Assembly (NCBI RefSeq): GCF_026810505.1
Contig: NZ_CP101750.1
Span: 8,606,515 to 8,670,514 of the forward strand
DNA length: 64,000 nucleotides
Reading direction: 5' to 3'
Origin: Streptomyces sp. Je 1-369
GTDB lineage: Bacteria > Actinomycetota > Actinomycetes > Streptomycetales > Streptomycetaceae
Each line of letters opens with the position of its first letter. Position 1 is the stretch's first letter. The position numbers and the translations under genes were made by a program. The notes beneath the pieces were generated by a model. It ran no database searches, had not been told where the DNA came from, and saw nothing but the letters and a program-made list of their open reading frames with translations. Shown piece by piece: positions 26,366 to 37,430 of the stretch.

Positions 26366-27247
26366 ATGGCCGCTGCTGACGGTGCGGCATCTTTCGGCAC
26401 GATGCCAGTGCAGCAACTCCGGTCGGGAGACCACGCGTTCGTCAGCTACGAGGACGACGAAGCGGGCCGCGACGTGGTCACCACCTTCGCCTGGACGGGA
26501 CTCGCCCGGCACGAGAAGGTCATGGTCTTCTCCTCGCCGCAGGTGGACGAGAGCGAGGTCTGGAACAGCCTGGACGCCCCGGGCCCCCTTCTGGGGGCGG
26601 CCCGCGAGCGGGGCCAGCTGGTGGTCAGCAGCATGCGCGCACTCATCCACCCCGCCCCGCACTTCACCCCCGAGCGCCAGTGGCAGCGCATCCAGGAGGA
26701 GACCGGCCGCGCCCTGAAGGAGGGCTACAGCGGTCTGCGCACCTATATCGACATGCACTGGGTGGCGGACCTGGACGCGGACGTCGCAGTGATGATGCAC
26801 CGCGAATCGAACGCCCAGCACCTCTTCACCGACCGCCCCTACACCGAGATCTGCGCCTACGACAGCAGGTCGTTCGCGCCCGACGTCCTGACAGCCATGC
26901 ACCGGGCCCACCCGTGCCGACTGCTGTCCCACCTCGGAGAACTCCACGTGGAACAGTCACCCGGCACCGTGCGCCTGGCCGGCGAGGCGGACGTCGCCAC
27001 CCGCGAACAGTTCCTCTCCGCTGTACGCGAAGGACTGCTGCGCACAGCGGACGCCCAACAGCTGACGCTGGACATGTCCCAGCTCATCTTCCTCAGCGCC
27101 GCCTGCGCCGTGGACCTGCTGAGACTGGCCGCGTCCTCCGAGGACCACGGAATCCGTGCCCTGTGCCATCCCGCAGGCGCCCGCATACTGCGGAGGGCGG
27201 GCGCGGAGAACATGCCCAACCTGCTGCTCAGCGAGGTGACCCGCTGA
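26366..27247 (+). CDS. MEDS-STAS anti-anti-sigma-type sensor protein
   Basis: A 293-residue cytosolic protein. Residues about 13-180 form a MEDS (DcmR sensory) domain: GDHAFVSYEDDEAGRDVV and LHTYIDM-type elements such as GLRTYIDMHWVADL. Residues about 195-290 form a STAS domain: GTVRLAGEADVATREQFL, LTLDMSQLIFLSAACAVDLLRLA, whose Ser in FLSAA is the expected phosphorylation site. STAS proteins bind anti-sigma kinases. The next gene is such a kinase and starts within its stop codon (TGATG at 27245). A hairpin-like palindrome (CCGCACAC/GTGTGCGG) at 26217-26243 lies upstream. Confidence 0.85.
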   Translation: MAAADGAASFGTMPVQQLRSGDHAFVSYEDDEAGRDVVTTFAWTGLARHEKVMVFSSPQVDESEVWNSLDAPGPLLGAARERGQLVVSSMRALIHPAPHFTPERQWQRIQEETGRALKEGYSGLRTYIDMHWVADLDADVAVMMHRESNAQHLFTDRPYTEICAYDSRSFAPDVLTAMHRAHPCRLLSHLGELHVEQSPGTVRLAGEADVATREQFLSAVREGLLRTADAQQLTLDMSQLIFLSAACAVDLLRLAASSEDHGIRALCHPAGARILRRAGAENMPNLLLSEVTR

Positions 27248-27663
27248 TGACGTCGATCGGCCCCGCCGAACCGCCGACCGCCCTGCTGGAGTATCCCTTC
27301 ACCCAGGACGACCTGCCGCGGCTGCGCATGCTCGTCGACCAGTACGCCGACCGCGAGGGGCTGCCCGAACCGCAGCGGAGCGATTTCATCGTGGCCATCG
27401 ACGCGGTGGCCACCAACGCCATCGCCCACGCGGGCGGCGGCGGCACGCTGACACTGCGGCGCGTCGACGGACACCTCGAATGCCACATCCACGACTCCGG
27501 CCCGGGCTTCACCGCGGACGTCATCCCCCCGCTGGCCCCGGGCATCGGCGACCCCGCCGAGGGCCGCGGACTGTGGCTGGCCCGCCACATCACCGAGTAC
27601 CTCAGGATCTCCGACGGCACCATCGGAGCCGTCGTCACCCTCGCCATGCGCCTGCCCCACTGA
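27247..27663 (+). CDS. HATPase_c anti-sigma-type kinase (RsbW-like)
   Basis: A 138-residue GHKL ATPase. The N-box is FIVAIDAVATNAIAHAGGGG, the G1 box is CHIHDSGPGFT and a later GRGLWLARHI is the G2 box. The family phosphorylates STAS antagonists and holds sigma factors; the STAS gene overlaps by one base. No sigma gene lies nearby, so the sigma partner is elsewhere. The stop TGA at 27661-27663 is also the left target copy of MITE 2, so the insertion landed at the end of the gene and kept a stop. Confidence 0.85.
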   Translation: MTSIGPAEPPTALLEYPFTQDDLPRLRMLVDQYADREGLPEPQRSDFIVAIDAVATNAIAHAGGGGTLTLRRVDGHLECHIHDSGPGFTADVIPPLAPGIGDPAEGRGLWLARHITEYLRISDGTIGAVVTLAMRLPH

Positions 27664-27886: not shown

Positions 27887-28735
27887 TCAGCTCCCGGTCG
27901 GGCAGTCCGCCCGGCGCGACGGCGGAGCCGCGCGGCCCGACTCCGCGTCCGCCACCGTCAGCACCTGCACGGTCAGGGCGCACTCGACCTGCCTGACGGT
28001 ATGGAACGTCACGAGGTCCTCGGGACCGTGCTCACGCCGTGGCCCGCCGCCGATCAGCATGCCGACGAGCCTGGCCCCGTACACCATGTGCCCGTCGACC
28101 TCCTTGTCGACCGGCACGAACACGGGGGATCCCGAATCGCCGTCGTCCACGATGTCCACGCCCTCCTTCCCGGCGAGCACCAGGCCCCGGGTGCACACGA
28201 TCGGCTCCTCATCGCCGCAGGACTCACCACCGGTGAGGTTGTACACCTCGATGTCGCAGACCAGCTTGGTCACCTTCCCGCTGACACACACCTTCTGCCC
28301 GCGCACGGGACCGTCCACCTTCTCCAGGACACGGCGCGCGACGGGCGTGCTCGGCGTACCGCCGTCCGTCCAGATGGTCGTCGCGTACACCTGCGGTTTG
28401 ACGCGGGTGCCGGTGATCATCGCGGCGTCCATCGTCTCCGTGTTGTACGACTCGAGGAACGTGCCGAACCTGAACTCGCCCGAGGTCGCATCCGTCCCGC
28501 TCGGCGCGCAGTGCCCGGCACTCGCCATCCCGCGCTTGCCACTGACGACCTTGCGCACGGCGAACCCCGACGAACAGGCGAACGTCCGTCCCCCGTACGT
28601 CACGCGGTACTCGGCACCGCCGCGGTGCGGCTGCGGATCGTTGGACCTGCTCGCCGGGGCACCGGACGCGGGCGATGACCACGTCAGGACCAGCAGGAGG
28701 GCCACCAGGCAGTAGGCGAAGGGTCGTCCTGACAT
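27887..28735 (-). CDS. secreted trypsin-like serine protease
   Basis: A 282-residue exported protease, start ATG 28735 with GAGGAG upstream. A signal peptide covers residues 1-26 (YCLVALLLVLTWSSPASG). The catalytic triad is seen as MASAGHC (His), ETMDAAMI (Asp) and DDGDSGSPVF (Ser). Cys pairs flank the His and lie in VCVSGKVTKLVC, a streptogrisin/alpha-lytic-like set of disulfides. It lacks the long pro-domain of streptogrisins. It starts 17 bases after the stop of the 1381-residue gene and is probably the third gene of that operon, so may process the giant proteins or their target. Chymotrypsin-fold call is secure; its substrate is inferred. Confidence 0.85.
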   Translation of the reverse strand: MSGRPFAYCLVALLLVLTWSSPASGAPASRSNDPQPHRGGAEYRVTYGGRTFACSSGFAVRKVVSGKRGMASAGHCAPSGTDATSGEFRFGTFLESYNTETMDAAMITGTRVKPQVYATTIWTDGGTPSTPVARRVLEKVDGPVRGQKVCVSGKVTKLVCDIEVYNLTGGESCGDEEPIVCTRGLVLAGKEGVDIVDDGDSGSPVFVPVDKEVDGHMVYGARLVGMLIGGGPRREHGPEDLVTFHTVRQVECALTVQVLTVADAESGRAAPPSRRADCPTGS

Positions 28736-28752
28736 CCGAATCTCCTCATTTC

Positions 28753-31700
28753 CTAGAGCTCGAAGTCGATCCGTCCGAGCACGCCGACACTCAGGCCGAA
28801 GTAGTCGGCGTGCACCGGACGCCGGGCCGCGGGCACGGCGGTGCCGTTCACAGTGAGGGTGTCCGTGGCGGTGTCCGCGTCGGTGCGGTAGAGCTCGTAC
28901 TCCTGCACGAGCAGCCGGTACGAGGTCAGCAACTGCACGTCCGGCAGGGGGACACCCCCGACCCACACGAACGAGCCGCCGTCGGCCCGGCACGTCAGCT
29001 CCGCCGGAGTGCCCGCCTGCTTCCAGTCCATCTCGTCCGTCTGGAGGGTGGCCCGGCTCTGCAGGGTCACGACGACCCGGCGGCTGGCGGCCGCGGCGGT
29101 GACTCCGGTGCCGCTGAGCTCGCCGAGTTCGTTGTACGTCGCCGGTCCCGCGAGACGCACGGTGAGCCGGTCGCCGTCCCTGCGACCGGTGACCGAGCGG
29201 GGCGGCACGAGCTGCGCGAACTCCGCGCGCTCCACCTTCGACAGATGCAGCGGATCGACCGAGTACGGCTGATAGCGGGCCAGGGCGAGCCGCACGTACG
29301 GGAAGTACGTCTTCGCGGTGGCGGCCGCGTCGCCGAAATCCACGTCGATGTCGACGTACCACAGCTGCCGCTCCGGGTGGAACGCCGGAGCGAACGCCAC
29401 CGCGTCGACGGCCACGGGGGCCGTGCCAGGGGAGTCGGCGAGCCGCAGGCCCGTCAGCCTCTCCGCCGCGTTCGGGAAGTGTCCGGCGGCCGGGTTCGGC
29501 AGGACCGTCGGGTCGGCCCAGACGGGGTCCACACCCCAGCGGGTGACGAAGGTGTCCGGCAGGGCCGCACCGGCCGGATCGAGCAGGACGGCCAGCATCT
29601 CGTCGTCGCCGGAGGAGAACCACGGCCGGTTCAGATAGACGCGCAGGCCCGCGGGGCGGCGGTGCCGGGTGATGGAGCGGCGCTCCTCGTCGACGGTCCG
29701 CTGCCAGCGGAAGGTCGGCACGACATAGGCCACCGCGGGCGGCTCGGGACGGCGCGAACTGGGCACGCGCACGGGAGCAGCCACCGGCCCGACCCGGGTG
29801 ACGTTGGCCCGGTCCTGCGTGATGCTGGGGTGGAAGTACTCGCGGAACCGGGTGACGGCCGTCGGTGTGTAGCGGATGTTGCGGTGCCGGGTGTCGCCGA
29901 ACTCGTGCGCGCGGTCGACGTGTTCCTCGTCGGCGGTGTACGCGAGGGTGATGTCCTCCAGGTGCGTGTGGCCGTCGATCAGGACCGGCTCGGGCCGGGC
30001 GACGTCGTCGAGCCACTCGCTCCAGTGCGCGTCCACCTCGACGTGACCGCTGCTCTCGGCGTGACTGGTCAGCGCCCCTGTCAGCTGCGCCGCGGTCTGT
30101 TCGGCCGTGCGGTGCGGTACCAGTTCGCGGAGCTCCGGGCGGAGTACGGGCTTCTCCACCGCGTGGACGAGCGTCAGCTCGACCCACGGGGTGAGCATCC
30201 AGTTCTCGCCGTCGGCGCTCGCCCGCGTGACGAACGCCTTGTCCGCGGCGGGCAGCTCCGCCCAGAACGGCGAGTCGGTCAGCAGGCTCCACTGCCGCAG
30301 CAACGGCAGCTTCCCCGGGGCGACATAGCAACTCAGCCGCACCGTGGCGATCTCACCCTTGGTGAGGAACACCTCAAGCACCCGTTCGCGCACGCCGTCA
30401 CGCCAGTGCGGTTCTCTGTCGCCTTCCCTGACGCGCAGCTTGAACGGCTTGGCCTGCGGCCACGGGCCGGGGAACGGGATCTTGCGGTTCTCCGTGTCAC
30501 CGGGCAGACCGCGCAGCATGACGCCCTCGGCCAGGACGTCCGGCAGGTACGGAAGGAGCAGCTGGTCGGCGCTGTGCACCACGAACTCGCCCTGTTCCAG
30601 GCCGGCGCCGCGCCGGGGGAGGGGCAGCGGGGTGAGCGGCAGCGGGTCATGCACGTTGTGCTTGGCGATGTGGATCTCGCCCTCGCGCAGCAGATCGTGT
30701 TCCAGGTGCGGCCACTCCGGGTCCCGCACCTTCGTGTCCAGGAAGGACCCGGACTCGCGGGACGCGACGGCGACGTACTCCTCGCGGACCTCGGCGGAGG
30801 AGTCCGGGCCGAAGACCGCGTCGAACACGCCGTGCTCCTCGGCCATCTGCAGGGCGGTCTTCGGCGGTGCCACATGCCGCTCCGCGACCGGCTTGTACCG
30901 CCGGTCCAGATCGTCGACCTCCGAGCGCGCCTCGTGGTCGGGGACGTCGGAGCGGCGCAGGGCGTACTCGTCGGTGGAGATCGCGCGGCCGTCGTCGGTG
31001 ACGGTGCTGCGGATGACGAGGCGCTCGGTGGACTCGCCCTCGTTGAACGGCAGGAGCGGCATCACCACGGGCTGGGGGACCGGCTCCCAGCGGCCGTACG
31101 TGATCGCGTCGGAGTGGACGGCGTCCGGGGTGCTCGCCGTGTGGTCGGGGCCGTTGCCCGCCAGGTCCACGACCCTGGCGCGCATCCGGTAGGTGCGGCC
31201 GAACCGCAGGGCGGGCAGCGAGCCCGGCTCCGCGGTGAACTTCGTGTCGAGCGGCACGTCCGGCGACACGGGCGGCGCCGGTGCCTCCGGCCGGTCGTCC
31301 AGGCCGATGGTCCGGCCCGGGCGCGGCGCAGCGAGGCTCCAGCCGTGCCAGCCGAGCACGGCCTGGTGCCCGTACAGCTGCCGGTCGTCGGCCGCGTCGA
31401 CGGTGACCGCGCTGGACCGCACCAGCCCCTCGTCCGGACGCACTCCCCGGATCTCGACGGGCTGCTGTCCCGGACGACGGACCGTGTAGCGGCCCCGGCG
31501 GCGCAGCAACGAACGCCACTGCGCGATGCGGCCGGTGGCGGGGTCGACGACGCCGATGTCGACGCGGTACCCCCGCAGCAGGTCCACGGCGGTCAGGACG
31601 GTCTCCGACGCGTCGACCTGCCGGCCCACGTCGGCACCGATGAGCCCGGCGAGGTGCCGGTCGCGGTCGGTGTGCAGCAGGGTGATTCCGGCGCCGCGGG

Positions 31701-32898
31701 CCGCGGGGGTGCCGGTGCCCGACACCTGCTGGGCCACTGATCGAGCGCCCGGGGGCAGCCGGTCGCCGTTCCACAGGGTGTCGATCGTGCGTGCGTAGTC
31801 GACGTGCTTGAGGGCCGCCCCGTCCACGTCGAGTTCGGTGAGGTGCCAGAGCTCGGGGTCGCCGAGGTCCAGCATGCGGTCCTTGATCACCCCGCTGTCC
31901 ACGGCGGCCGCCTCGAAGACGTTGCCCCGCGTGTAACGGATGCGCGTCCAAGGGCACTTGCCCGGGGCGTTGAGCACGCCCGCCTCGGGCAGCCCGTCGT
32001 CGAAGTGCACACGCACCTGCGCCCCGTCCACCACCCCCGCCGGCATCGCGAAGCTCAGATCGAGCACGAGCCCGAACCGCCGCTGCAGCTCCGGATAGTC
32101 GCCCAGCAGCCCGCACGCCTCATGGAAGTCGATCCGGTGCGCGGGCTCCTCCGCGAGCCCGGGCACGGACGGCGCCTTGCCCCGGTCGTAGAACCTGGCC
32201 GCCTCGGCGAGCGGCAGCATCCGCTTGTCGTCGGAGTACGCCCCGCTCGTACGGTCCATGAAGCGCGGCTTGTGCCCGTCGTCGTCCGCCGCGCGGACAC
32301 CGCGCGGACGGAGCACCTCCTCCAGCACCGCGTACCCGTCCTTCGGGTTGCGGCCCAGTTCGAGCACCCGGTCCGGGATCAGGTCGGCCACCCGGAACAG
32401 CGCGGGAAGCTCCCAGCCGCGGTGGTCCGTCGGCGGCTCCTCGCACAACGCCCGTTCCTCCCGGGCCCAAGCGGTACGCAGCCTGCTCTGCGTGGTGTGC
32501 ACGGCGATCGCCTCGTACAGCCCGGTCACCTCGTCGTGCACCAGCTTGCCCGGGTAGGAGCGCAGCGTGCGCCGCTCGTCCGCGGCGAGCGCGGTGGGCG
32601 GCGGCTGTGGGGGGCGTACGAAGGTGGAGTCGTCGAACAGGGTCCGCCACAGGGCGAGGTCGGCGGCCGGATAGCGGCCCGTGGGCCGCAGGCTGGTCAC
32701 ACGCGTGCCCGCCGGACTGTTGAACTCCAGCCACAGCGACGGGAGAAGCGCCGCCAGCCGCTCCGGCCACTTCGCGAAGTACGCGGACTGACCGAGCGCG
32801 CCGATCCCGGTGAGGCTGGGGCTGACGAGCACGGACACACGTACCGTGTCCGCGTCGGCGACGCCGTCGGGAAGCACGGTCCAACGGATGCTGTCCAT
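28753..32898 (-). CDS. giant hypothetical protein, 1381 aa (operon gene 2)
   Basis: A 1381-residue protein of no family I can name. No signal peptide, membrane helix or ATPase motif. The N-terminus MDSIRWTVLPDGVADADTVRVSVLVSP and the end DYFGLSVGVLGRIDFEL are beta-strand-like; a stretch near residues 1180-1240 (VDIDVDFGDAAATAKTYFPYVRLALARYQPYS) looks like a conserved module of large structural proteins. Several short beta-sandwich-like repeats (RYTVRRPGQQPVEIRG, TYRMRARVVDLAGNG) are Fn3- or Ig-like in character (inference). Start ATG 32898, two bases after the stop of the upstream giant gene, with GGAGG inside that gene; co-transcription and coupling are likely. A structural or surface assembly role is possible but unproven. 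Confidence 0.75.
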   Translation of the reverse strand: MDSIRWTVLPDGVADADTVRVSVLVSPSLTGIGALGQSAYFAKWPERLAALLPSLWLEFNSPAGTRVTSLRPTGRYPAADLALWRTLFDDSTFVRPPQPPPTALAADERRTLRSYPGKLVHDEVTGLYEAIAVHTTQSRLRTAWAREERALCEEPPTDHRGWELPALFRVADLIPDRVLELGRNPKDGYAVLEEVLRPRGVRAADDDGHKPRFMDRTSGAYSDDKRMLPLAEAARFYDRGKAPSVPGLAEEPAHRIDFHEACGLLGDYPELQRRFGLVLDLSFAMPAGVVDGAQVRVHFDDGLPEAGVLNAPGKCPWTRIRYTRGNVFEAAAVDSGVIKDRMLDLGDPELWHLTELDVDGAALKHVDYARTIDTLWNGDRLPPGARSVAQQVSGTGTPAARGAGITLLHTDRDRHLAGLIGADVGRQVDASETVLTAVDLLRGYRVDIGVVDPATGRIAQWRSLLRRRGRYTVRRPGQQPVEIRGVRPDEGLVRSSAVTVDAADDRQLYGHQAVLGWHGWSLAAPRPGRTIGLDDRPEAPAPPVSPDVPLDTKFTAEPGSLPALRFGRTYRMRARVVDLAGNGPDHTASTPDAVHSDAITYGRWEPVPQPVVMPLLPFNEGESTERLVIRSTVTDDGRAISTDEYALRRSDVPDHEARSEVDDLDRRYKPVAERHVAPPKTALQMAEEHGVFDAVFGPDSSAEVREEYVAVASRESGSFLDTKVRDPEWPHLEHDLLREGEIHIAKHNVHDPLPLTPLPLPRRGAGLEQGEFVVHSADQLLLPYLPDVLAEGVMLRGLPGDTENRKIPFPGPWPQAKPFKLRVREGDREPHWRDGVRERVLEVFLTKGEIATVRLSCYVAPGKLPLLRQWSLLTDSPFWAELPAADKAFVTRASADGENWMLTPWVELTLVHAVEKPVLRPELRELVPHRTAEQTAAQLTGALTSHAESSGHVEVDAHWSEWLDDVARPEPVLIDGHTHLEDITLAYTADEEHVDRAHEFGDTRHRNIRYTPTAVTRFREYFHPSITQDRANVTRVGPVAAPVRVPSSRRPEPPAVAYVVPTFRWQRTVDEERRSITRHRRPAGLRVYLNRPWFSSGDDEMLAVLLDPAGAALPDTFVTRWGVDPVWADPTVLPNPAAGHFPNAAERLTGLRLADSPGTAPVAVDAVAFAPAFHPERQLWYVDIDVDFGDAAATAKTYFPYVRLALARYQPYSVDPLHLSKVERAEFAQLVPPRSVTGRRDGDRLTVRLAGPATYNELGELSGTGVTAAAASRRVVVTLQSRATLQTDEMDWKQAGTPAELTCRADGGSFVWVGGVPLPDVQLLTSYRLLVQEYELYRTDADTATDTLTVNGTAVPAARRPVHADYFGLSVGVLGRIDFEL

Positions 32899-32900
32899 GA

Positions 32901-35900
32901 TCAGTCCACCTCCGCGAACGCGGTGCAGTAGTCGAGGACCGGATCGATCAGGGCGCCGGTCACCGGGTCGGGGTACGGGGACATCAGATCGACGAAGGTG
33001 GGCGGAGTGATGGCGGGGCGAGGCGCGTCCCCGGCGAACGCGGCGGTTCCGGTGCCGCTGCCCGCGAACTTCTTCTCGCAGCTGATCGTCACCGACGTCT
33101 CGAAGAAGCCGATCTCGATGCTGATCGTCAGGGTGGCCCGCCCGATCGCGTACCCGTCCTTGTAGCCCAGCTCCATGTACAGCTCGATGGAGGCGGAGAC
33201 GATGCCGAGGACGTCGACCTCGCCGCGCGCCCGCAGATAGCCGACGAGCGTCACGCTGTTCTGCGCCAGGTCGAGCCGGAAGTAGATCCCGGCCATCACC
33301 GACAGGCTGCCGCTCGCCACCCCGAAGTTCATCGACACGGCGGCCCCGAACTCGAGGGCCGCGTCCAGCACGGCGATCTCTTTGGGGTTCAGGACGATTC
33401 CGAAGTAGCCCCCGCCGCCGAGCATCGACACGGTGAGGCGGAACGGCGCCTCACGGCGGCAGAACGCGAACCCGGCCTGGAGCGGTGTGTCGCCGATGAA
33501 CGGGACGGACAGCACCGCGTTGAGGGAGAGGTTCTCCAGGCTGAAGACGCCGACGGCCGCGTTCGGCAGCTGCATGGAGTAGTTGGCGTGGATGCCCGAT
33601 CCGTCGACCGTGATGGCGGGCGGGTCGCTGAAGCCGTCGAGCGGAATGATGTTGCGCAGGGTCTGGACGAAGGCGAGGTTCCCCACGAAGTCGACGCCGC
33701 CGAACTTCACCTCGACGTCCGGCTTCTGCCCGGCGCGCATGCTGAACCGGATCTCGTCGAAGTGCAGCACGACCGCGTCGAACCCGGGCACCATGCGCAG
33801 GTCGAACCTGCCCAGGGTGCAGGTGACGTCGGCGGCCTGCGGCACGTCCGGGCGCAGCGAGCCGCGCAGGTCGGTGACGAGCGTCAGTTTCCCCGTCGGC
33901 CAGAACACGGCGTCCTCGGCCCTGGTCGGCGTCGGCTTGCCCGGCGTCCACGCCTTGATGTCGGGCTGCCACTGCAACCGGGAGTTGACCACGTCGGGCA
34001 ACTTAGCGCCGAGCGCGGCCAACTCGATCGCCTTCTTCAGGGCGAGGGCCCGGCCGACGGCACTGTCCCAGGTGGCGGCCTGCTCGGCGATCCGGCCGAG
34101 CAGCTGCCGTACGCCGGTGTCGACCCCGGCGGGCAGCGCGACGCGCAGCGCGGCGAGGGCGTCGGCGAACGCGTCGAAGGCGTTCTCGACCTCCTCGATG
34201 GTGGTGGGGTCAGGCGATTCCTCAACGGCGGTGGAGGCCGTTGCCCGCGCCAACTGGCCGACGATGTAGTCCACGAGGGTCTGTGCGAAGAGCGCCGCGG
34301 CATCGGTCACGCGAAGGACCGCGTCCACCGTCCCGGGGAACTGTTCCTCGACGGACGTGAGCAGATCGCGCAGCCCGAGGAGGTCGCCGAGGAAGCCGGT
34401 GACCGCGTCGACCGTCGCCGTGAAGAAGTTCGGCGCCTTGAGGTTGTCGAGGCCGATCTCGCTCAGGATCTCGGTGAGCGGGAACATTCCGAACAGCTTG
34501 GCCCCGGCCAGCTCCCCGAAGTAGTCGAGGGGATTGAACCGGCCCTGCGCGAGCTTGGCCCACTTGTCGACGGGCCCGGCACCCGCTGCTGAGCCCGCCG
34601 CCGTCCCTTGTGCCGCGGCGACAGGACCGGTGAGCCGGGAGAGCCCGGCGACGGGGAAGTTGGGCTGGGCGAGGGCGCCGGAGGTCTGCCCCGAGCCGCG
34701 GAACGTCAGGTCCACGGGCGTGACGAGCTCGACGAAGACCTGCCCCTTGTTCGCCTCGGTGAAGGCGTCCCGCACATACGGCTCGGGGTAGAACACCGAC
34801 TGCGGCTGGTCGGTCCCGAAGCCGCCGAACTGGCTGAGTGCCGGGATCACGGCCCGGGCCCAGCGCACGGTCGGCACGAACCGCGGGTGATCGGTGGGGT
34901 CCAGGTCCAGGATGGCCTCGGTGGTCGCGGCGCCCCAGATCAGCTGCCCGGTGGAGAGCGCCGTGTCGCCGGGCTTGCGGCTCGGCGCGTACGCGATGGA
35001 CTGGCCGCGCACGTCGGCGACGGCGCGCCGGACGGCGGGGTCGTTCAGGTTCGGTGGCCCGGGGGACGGTTCGGGGACGAGGCTCCGGTAGTGGTCGACG
35101 ATCACCTGCACGTCGGCCTTGTTCTCGTGGACGAGCTTGCCGACGAACGCCATCGGCGTACGGAACTCCAGGAGACGCCCCTCCAGGTCGAGCATGCTCA
35201 CCTGGAACTGGAAGGGATCCTCGGTGGCCGACACAGGGAAGAAGGCGAGCTTCTCGTTGGGGTCACCGCCGGTGGAGGAGAGTCCGGGGATGGTCCGCGG
35301 CGTCTCCAGATCAGGCGTGACCAGGGTGAGCAGCCGGACGCTGCTGAACGGGAAGAGCCGCCGCAGCCGCCGCTGATCGGCGTTGTCCTCCGGCGCTCCG
35401 TAACTGCGCACAGGCTCGCGCACCATGATGAAGAACCGCTGGTTGAGATAGGCGGCCCGGTCCGGACGCGCGTGGTCGAACTTGCGCTCGGTGACCTTGA
35501 CCAAATCCGCCAGATGCCCGAACGGCCACAGGCGGCCGCGGTACATGACGCGCACGTAGTGATCACGGCCCAGCGCGGCACGGTGCCGCCACTGCGTGAC
35601 GTCGAAGCCGACCGGCGGCCGGTCCCAGCGGCCGAACGAGTCGAGCCAGCCGCCCATGGCTCGACCGGCGGCCGGTCCCAGCGGCCGAACGAGTCGAGCC
35701 AGCCGCCCATGGCGGAAAGGACGAGGTTGTCGACGTCGAGCGGCGCGGGCGTGAAGCCGCCGGGCAGGTTCCGGTTGGAGCTCAGATGGACGACCGAGGA
35801 CCGGTCCTTGCGGTCGAGCGCCATCGTGAACTCGTTGCCCCCGGCGGGCAGCGCGCGGGGGTCGGCCGGGTCGAATCCGGGGTCGCGGGTCCACACCGCG

Positions 35901-36643
35901 CGGGCGTGACCGGCCGGCATCCGGGTGTGCCAGAGCTCGACGCGGCCGTCCGGGTCGGGGAGCGCGGTGGGGTGCGTCCAGGTCGCGGACTGCGGCGGGG
36001 AGAGCAGCAGCCGGTAGGGGAGCTCGATGCCGGTACGGGGGTTGGCGGCGTCGGCCAGGGGGTTCTCGGGGGCGGGGTTGGCGAAGGCGTGCGGGATGCC
36101 CGTAGGGGGCGTGGCGCGGGAGTCGGCGGGCCGGGCGGGGCCGTGTCGGGCGGCCAGTTCCGCAGTTGTCCGGGCCAGCCGCAGGGCCTGGAACACGTCG
36201 ACGGGGCGGTCGGCCACGGTGTGCGCCAGATGGGCCGCGGAGGCGGGCTCCCGCGCGGCGTCCACGACGTGGAGCGGCAGGGTCCGCATGGCCGTGAGCA
36301 GACCCGCTTCGGTGTACTCGATGACGACGTCGGCGGCGACGGAGAACACGAGCAGGCTGCGTCCGCCGATGCGCGAGGCGACGGGCGGCGGCTTGTGCGG
36401 CTCGCTTCCGGCGCGTGCCGTTTCCGGTAGACCGGGGCTGATCTCGAAGAAGGCCTGCTCGGCGACGTGTTGAGGGCCGAACGTGACTACGAGGAAGGCG
36501 GGTTGCGCGGGTTCCTTGCGCACCAGCCGCCGTGGTCCGAGGAGGGGGCGTTCCAGTCGCAGACCCAGGAACGCGAAGTGGAGATCGAGCAGGTCGGTCG
36601 CCCGTAGCAGCCGGTACGGCTCGGGCGGTGGGGGCGCGGCCAT
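32901..36643 (-). pseudogene. giant hypothetical protein, operon gene 1, frameshifted by tandem duplication
   Basis: The gene starts at ATG 36643 (MAAPPPPEPYRLLRATDLL; AGGAG upstream) and reads in one frame to about 35650, where LSAMGGWLDSFGRWDRPP is met. A 52-bp sequence is repeated at an offset of 53 bases (35609-35660 and 35662-35713), shifting the frame; the downstream frame repeats GGWLDSFGRWDRPPVGFDV and continues to TGA 32901. Removing one 53-base unit restores a single 1229-codon frame. The protein has no signal or membrane helix; its C-terminal 450 residues are rich in beta strands (FSLENLSLNAVLS, LTISIEIGFFETSVTIS). Unknown family. Either a real switch/lesion or a sequencing artefact. 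Confidence 0.75.
35609..35713. repeat. tandem duplication, period 53 bp, inside giant gene
   Basis: Two 52-base identical copies (35609-35660 and 35662-35713) separated by a single T. It includes the codons for GGWLDSFGRWDR. The 53-base shift is not a multiple of three and breaks the reading frame. Confidence 0.95.
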
Positions 36644-37004
36644 GTGACTCTCCTGTCAGACGAGTCAGGGAACTCGTACGAGTCAGGAGACCCGTACGGG
36701 TGTGGCGCCGATCCTCACAGGAACAGGGTGGTCGGCAGACCGACCGGCCGACCGGGCAGCGGGCCGCAGACGTGTCCCCCGGACCCCTCGGCCTCCCTGC
36801 CCTCCATGCGCACGATGGCTCGTGCCAAGGCTCCCGGACCCGCCCGGCACCGTGCACGGAGGCCACCCCTCCACCACCCGAACGAGTGAACTCGGCGGCC
36901 GACAGGTCATACGTAAGCGACGCGCAGGGAGACGGAATACGCCTCGTGGCGGGCGAGTTGAAGACAATTGCCACCATCCGGTACCGCTCAACAAGGAGAC
37001 CCGC
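36644..37004. promoter_or_regulatory. divergent intergenic region before giant-protein operon
   Basis: No gene. It must hold the promoters of the minus-strand operon and of the PNPOx-like gene. Near 36655-36705 the sequence ACGAGTCAGG occurs twice with interleaved CTCGTACGAG and CCCGTACGGG palindromes, a possible operator. AAGGAG at 36993 serves the plus gene. Confidence 0.45.
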
Positions 37005-37430
37005 ATGCCCCTGAGCGTCGAAGAGCGCGAACTGTTCCTCGCCGAGCCGCACATCGGAGCGCTGGCCGTGACGGCGGAGGACGGCCGGGCGCCGCTCACC
37101 CTGCCGATCTGGTACCAGTACGCCCCGGGTGGCGAGCTCTGGGTGATGACGGGCCGCCACTCCAAGAAGGGGCAGCTGATCGCCGCCGCGGGACGTTTCT
37201 CGCTGATGGTCGATCGCCTGGAGCCGACCATCCGGTACGTCTCCGTGGAGGGTCCCGTGGTCCGCACCGAGGAGGCGACCATCGAGCAGCTGCGGGAGAT
37301 CTCGGCGCGCTACCTCGCGCCCGACAAGGTCGAGCCGTACATCGAGTTCGCCTCCAAGGACCACGGTGAGCAGGCGGTCTACTACCTGCGGCCCGAGCAC
37401 TGGTACTCGTCGGACCTCGGAACCGTCTGA
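37005..37430 (+). CDS. pyridoxamine 5'-phosphate oxidase-like (split beta-barrel) protein
   Basis: A 141-residue flavin-type split-barrel protein. Seen: LFLAEPHIGALAVTAEDGRAPLTLPIWYQY, the standard opening of the PNPOx/F420-binding group, then GRHSKKGQLIAAAGRFSLMVD. Start ATG 37005 after AAGGAG. Members bind FMN, F420 or heme; which one is not clear from the short sequence. It is divergent from the giant-protein operon. Confidence 0.8.
   Translation: MPLSVEERELFLAEPHIGALAVTAEDGRAPLTLPIWYQYAPGGELWVMTGRHSKKGQLIAAAGRFSLMVDRLEPTIRYVSVEGPVVRTEEATIEQLREISARYLAPDKVEPYIEFASKDHGEQAVYYLRPEHWYSSDLGTV

Follow-up and report, generated by a model that had tools for sequence, protein, structure and literature searches.

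What might two giant proteins, encoded almost end to end and matching no family that we searched, be doing together, and does the protease gene behind them belong to the same system? The question is raised by a stretch of 64,000 nucleotides from Streptomyces sp. Je 1-369 (contig NZ_CP101750.1, hereafter the window), in which three minus-strand genes follow one another in the order A, B, C with intergenic gaps of 2 and 17 bases. Gene A runs from an ATG at 36643 to a last stop that ends at 32901, gene B (28753..32898) encodes 1381 amino acids and gene C (27887..28735) encodes 282. An earlier note on this DNA had given the same layout, which our coordinates confirm, and had proposed a joint function for all three genes. 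We find that A and B are a near-obligate, selected tandem pair without a family. As to function, about half of our confidence goes to the reading that A and B form one complex, which in some lineages would be co-exported by the twin-arginine (Tat) system on a signal carried by A to act at the cell surface, and that a beta-meander of A serves as a binder or scaffold.

The near-obligate tandem pair of A and B

Of 55 loci from several phyla, ranging from Streptomyces to rhizobial plasmids, 51 have the two genes in tandem with A leading. The set comprises 19 loci in genome contigs located with B as query, 16 of the 18 plasmid records, 12 genomes located with A and eight loci picked by hand from those that a piece of B had retrieved; pairing was called by tblastn in 43 of the first 46 and by profile in L035 and in seven of the nine later plasmid loci. 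Homologues of A and B are mostly found together, and the joint function is strongly supported for these two genes. Their matches lie 0.5 to 1.6 kb from each other in L070, L079 and L083, and in L083 a transposase-like frame (recognised by eye) separates them.

Some observations count against so strict a pairing. The window's A matched 18 plasmid records and its B nine, and as a query at 1e-5 this B gave a match in just 9 of the 18 records that carry A; eight of the nine records seemingly lacking B were opened, and a profile found B in five of them (L035 and L095-L098). As for the exceptions, L034 holds A fragments and nothing more, and L078 gave no core match above threshold. L099 and L100 have, directly after the A end, a giant gene that goes unrecognised by the B profile.

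The last two loci form a more distant branch, one member of which is annotated as apolipoprotein-like; in L099 (9208-19026) and L100 (5155-20358) the A end is kept, and the profiles recognise neither most of the A first part nor the partner. In the Streptomyces protein P0025, the first half of A runs on into the final three quarters of B, as though a deletion had joined them. The rhizobial plasmid loci L035, L095 and L100 (the last with the A end and the unrecognised giant partner) lie near genes annotated as dpdE/dpdF, WYL, an N-6 DNA methylase with a PD-(D/E)XK nuclease, or SIR2, a neighbourhood that recalls defence islands.

Protein homologues fell into 71 clusters for B and 301 for A, each from about 8,000 candidates scored, and 120 of the 301 A matches were listed. 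Among the matches listed, named homologues of A and B are mostly from Streptomyces, the closest being S. atriruber and S. venezuelae, with others from a Symbiobacteriaceae metagenome-assembled genome, Sandaracinobacteroides, Anaerolineae and Horticoccus. Counting the window's own genome, 28 of 295 Streptomyces genomes have a match to a 271-residue piece of B, and 13 of 396 Actinomycetota genomes have one to the A end.

All three reading frames are genuine coding sequence and not chance. Gene A has an AGGAG-like ribosome site and an in-frame stop immediately upstream of its ATG, its first part is 70-84% identical to ten close relatives, and gene B has a guanine-plus-cytosine fraction of 0.93 at third codon positions. 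Comparison of nonsynonymous and synonymous substitution (Ka/Ks) with L015 (S. atriruber) gave 0.076/0.353 and 0.041/0.300 for the first and second parts of A, 0.055/0.261 for B and 0.127/0.261 for C; with L010 (S. flavofungini) the values were 0.163/0.530, 0.120/0.464, 0.161/0.474 and 0.370/0.562, respectively. These patterns show that A and B are under purifying selection.

The claim that A and B carry no known domain was borne out. In Pfam, NCBIfam and PHROGs, neither part of A (the two parts were analysed separately throughout) nor B or C scored above a family cut-off, no PADLOC model of anti-phage defence matched, and PDB sequence searches with the A second part and with B gave no useful match, nor did PDB searches with profiles built from divergent proteins (23 for A, 22 for B). 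A clear match to an unrelated known family was likewise found for neither. A and B thus represent two protein families that fit none of those tested. That a tandem giant pair carried by actinobacteria, proteobacteria and others has no family model in the searched libraries is a real hole in annotation.

The predicted folds agree with the earlier description of A and B as beta-rich and modular. B, in which no signal peptide was seen, is modelled as an array of immunoglobulin/fibronectin-like beta-sandwich domains. The model of A covers its second part (mean predicted local distance difference test score, pLDDT, 83) and shows a helical segment at second-part residues 418-548 (34014..34406), strongly variable in length between clades, and, in the C-terminal region, an amphipathic antiparallel beta-meander at residues 676-872 (33042..33632).

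Gene A is broken in this strain. By the open reading frame list and its homologues, it consists of an N-terminal region of 326 codons in one frame (35666..36643) and a second part of 918 codons plus stop in another (32901..35657), and it is split because of a perfect 53-base tandem duplication at 35609..35713, with 52 matching positions. The intact protein measures 1222-1255 amino acids in the 15 closest homologues among the matches listed. We take seriously, though at somewhat short of even weight, the possibility that the operon is dying here, the duplication having killed A so that a working system exists only in relatives, an outcome compatible with any other reading. The duplicated segment is present as a single copy in nine of ten close relatives and as two copies in none (the tenth has no copy at the mismatch limit used), which speaks for this possibility; on the other side, the pattern could come from an error in the assembly or from a tandem duplication that is reversible, and B, C and the two parts of A contain no further break.

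Protease C

The third gene had been called a secreted trypsin-like protease, and this description holds. Its start is signal-like (by eye) in all seven copies, and the His, Asp and Ser of the triad, whose motifs we take to be of the chymotrypsin type, are kept in 7/7 aligned copies. PDB matches were to 5mrt, a lytic endopeptidase (E 2.8e-5), and to 2oua (E 0.013). C thus shares the triad motifs of lytic endopeptidase and alpha-lytic-type proteases; unlike them, it is undetected by Pfam at E<=1, and it does not figure among the 17 matches to PF00089 in its own genome. Its frame is nested in a longer one that starts with TTG.

Behind B, C occurs in 6 of the 19 relatives found in genome contigs, so the proposed joint function does not extend to it generally. 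Some match to C exists in 7 of 295 Streptomyces genomes and a close one (at least 45% identity across most of C) in three, the window's included. Since the close copies adjoin B in all three, and C is the commonest family among the clustered neighbours of 44 loci (five loci), it is a clade-specific accessory of the operon, outside the core, and not a passer-by. It also evolves faster than A and B, with a Ka/Ks ratio of about 0.49 against 0.14-0.22 in the comparison with L015 and of 0.66 against 0.26-0.34 with L010. The idea of a dedicated maturation protease survives as little more than this accessory status: C is missing from most relatives, changes faster and is secreted, in contrast to the signal-less A and B of the window. 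Where present, C may trim the exported complex.

Proposed export and surface role of the complex

The case for a surface role comes from relatives. A twin-arginine signal, read by eye, stands at the start of A in 10 of 51 proteins (L032, L035, L073, L077, L079, L095-L098 and L101), in both Actinomycetota and Alphaproteobacteria. The partner B has no signal in any of the eight Tat-bearing loci in which it was read; the B start was not found in L079, and L101 stands outside this count. On a Sinorhizobium meliloti plasmid (L096), an A of 3052 residues with a Tat signal and a B of 1766 residues are followed, 49 bases behind B, by a 55-residue TatA (PF02416, E 2.4e-9). CWB2, a module that anchors surface proteins (PMC8559796), was matched three times in B of L077, most strongly at residues 1712-1799 of 1909. 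At this one locus the anchors are a strong hint that a signal-less B acts outside the cell. A peptidoglycan-binding module was matched in B of L081 and L084 and, below cut-off, in P0054, and A of L086 (4102-8340) has a DUF346 repeat and a lectin-like start. A lectin-like (DUF346-type) start was also seen, by eye alone, in A of L083 (2875-5862).

Hydrogenases and formate dehydrogenases offer a precedent: they travel through Tat with a signal on one partner alone (PMC10924467). A and B resemble such hitchhiker complexes in that ten relatives have the signal on the first subunit and none on B where it was read, one B has wall anchors and one operon includes a tatA of its own. They differ in being giant beta-rich proteins with no cofactor domain by Pfam, and in that most A proteins, the window's included, have no signal. 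The same paper describes proteins exported solely by binding a Tat-targeted partner as hard to identify bioinformatically, a remark made of tail-anchored proteins. Since relatives divide signal and wall anchor between the two subunits, and one operon contains tatA, co-export of a very large complex becomes directly testable.

We propose that A and B are two subunits of one large complex, of about 2600 residues per 1:1 unit here and of more than 4600 in some rhizobial relatives, which would fold in the cytoplasm. From there, in several lineages, it would leave in folded form through Tat, B riding on A's signal, to be held at the wall by the CWB2 or peptidoglycan-binding modules added to B; it could bind glycans through the lectin-like start of A. 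The surface structure suggested by the earlier note is supported by relatives and not by the window's own A.

Several results weigh against this proposal. By eye, 41 of the 51 A proteins have no Tat signal, and none of the 119 nearer A homologues listed, of 301 found, passed a Tat pattern, which itself missed two by-eye cases among the first five and gave one false match. The window's A has no signal, and an in-frame stop bars an upstream extension, so that in its clade export would be absent or would take an unspecified route. Complex formation, Tat co-export, a surface role and a binding function of the sheet are all steps that we infer.

The two counts just given speak for a cytoplasmic two-subunit scaffold in most lineages, the window's among them, with Tat signals and wall modules as side branches uninformative on the core role. 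We give this perhaps a quarter of our confidence. It sits poorly with Tat signals in both groups named above and a tatA in one operon, with wall or glycan modules that recur in relatives, and with the link between B and a secreted protease in this clade.

The amphipathic sheet of A

Under the proposal of an exported A-B complex, the core function would most likely be binding or scaffolding through the long meander of A, which shows an amphipathic alternation and in which the hydrophobic face extends over about a dozen strands of sheet. Something would have to shield this oily face: B, the helices of A itself or a hydrophobic ligand. Of five Tat-bearing A proteins in which the helical segment was measured, four have a short one (104-136 residues from anchor to anchor), so cover by A's own helices would not be general, a point against that part of the proposal. 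From the model, a lipid or other hydrophobic ligand might occupy the sheet, with no more than one chance in three.

A bolder version, which we regard as improbable, makes the pair a new bacterial two-subunit cell-surface carrier of lipids or other hydrophobic molecules, A providing an open amphipathic beta-sheet analogous to the vitellogenin type and B an immunoglobulin-like shell; the folded pair, which in relatives among the Alphaproteobacteria reaches as many as about 5000 residues and in one case has its own TatA, would be exported by Tat as one cargo. Large lipid transfer proteins (vitellogenin, MTP and apoB; PMC9219001) also combine an amphipathic beta-sheet and helices in one large protein, and the Foldseek list for A has MTP at ranks 1 and 4 and lipovitellin at rank 6. 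Unlike them, A and B are bacterial and encoded by two genes, and the template modelling scores (TM-scores) are about 0.1. No Pfam model of the lipid transfer superfamily matched at E<=1 (window proteins) or E<=0.01 (23 A relatives), and lipid transfer proteins were absent among the 50 matches listed in the VIA fold search.

The meander was likened to beta-barrel walls, with barrel closure not visible in the model output, and this resemblance may be merely a common strand arrangement. From outer-membrane beta-barrels (CymA, FhuA, LptD) A differs in that no Sec-type start was seen, many hosts are Gram-positive and the meander makes up just about 190 residues of a multidomain protein. The DUF6603 (PF20248) giants of Streptomyces have, by eye, a glycine-rich amphipathic strand pattern that looks similar to that of A; profile-profile comparison, from shallow alignments, showed no similarity (probability of 1.4% or less). 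The window's own genome encodes a DUF6603 giant (G000:C1:803417-804964).

A pore-forming or toxin-like pair, whose meander would insert into a target membrane after activation by C, seems quite unlikely: the barrel-wall-like sheet and the adjoining secreted protease of one clade are what suggest it, whereas no toxin family matched, the hydrophobic face covers about a dozen strands and not a single hairpin, and the protease is missing in most relatives. The toxin-like system of the earlier note thus gained no positive evidence. Descent from a phage tail or contractile-injection structure we consider very improbable, since a label "Baseplate protein J-like" given by one source to a B relative, a top match to phage host-specificity protein J in a viral fold search of A (E 5.9e-4, TM-score 0.09) and one IMG/VR contig carrying A and B stand against no PHROG match, no match in 50,697 phage records, a position of A-B on that contig outside the genes for capsid, protease and terminase (by eye), which lie at one end, and no tail family (by eye) among the neighbours common to at least three of 44 loci. 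On the contig itself (L089, 254-10085), A-B lies next to capsid, prohead protease and terminase-like genes, probably at a prophage edge.

Among other neighbours of A-B, hemopexin, NHL and BNR propeller repeats occur in L075, L074 and L087, each in one genome. In the window, the operon is flanked upstream by a plus-strand pyridoxamine-oxidase-like gene (36702-37430) and downstream by a sensor/anti-sigma-like pair (26366-27663), both named by eye.
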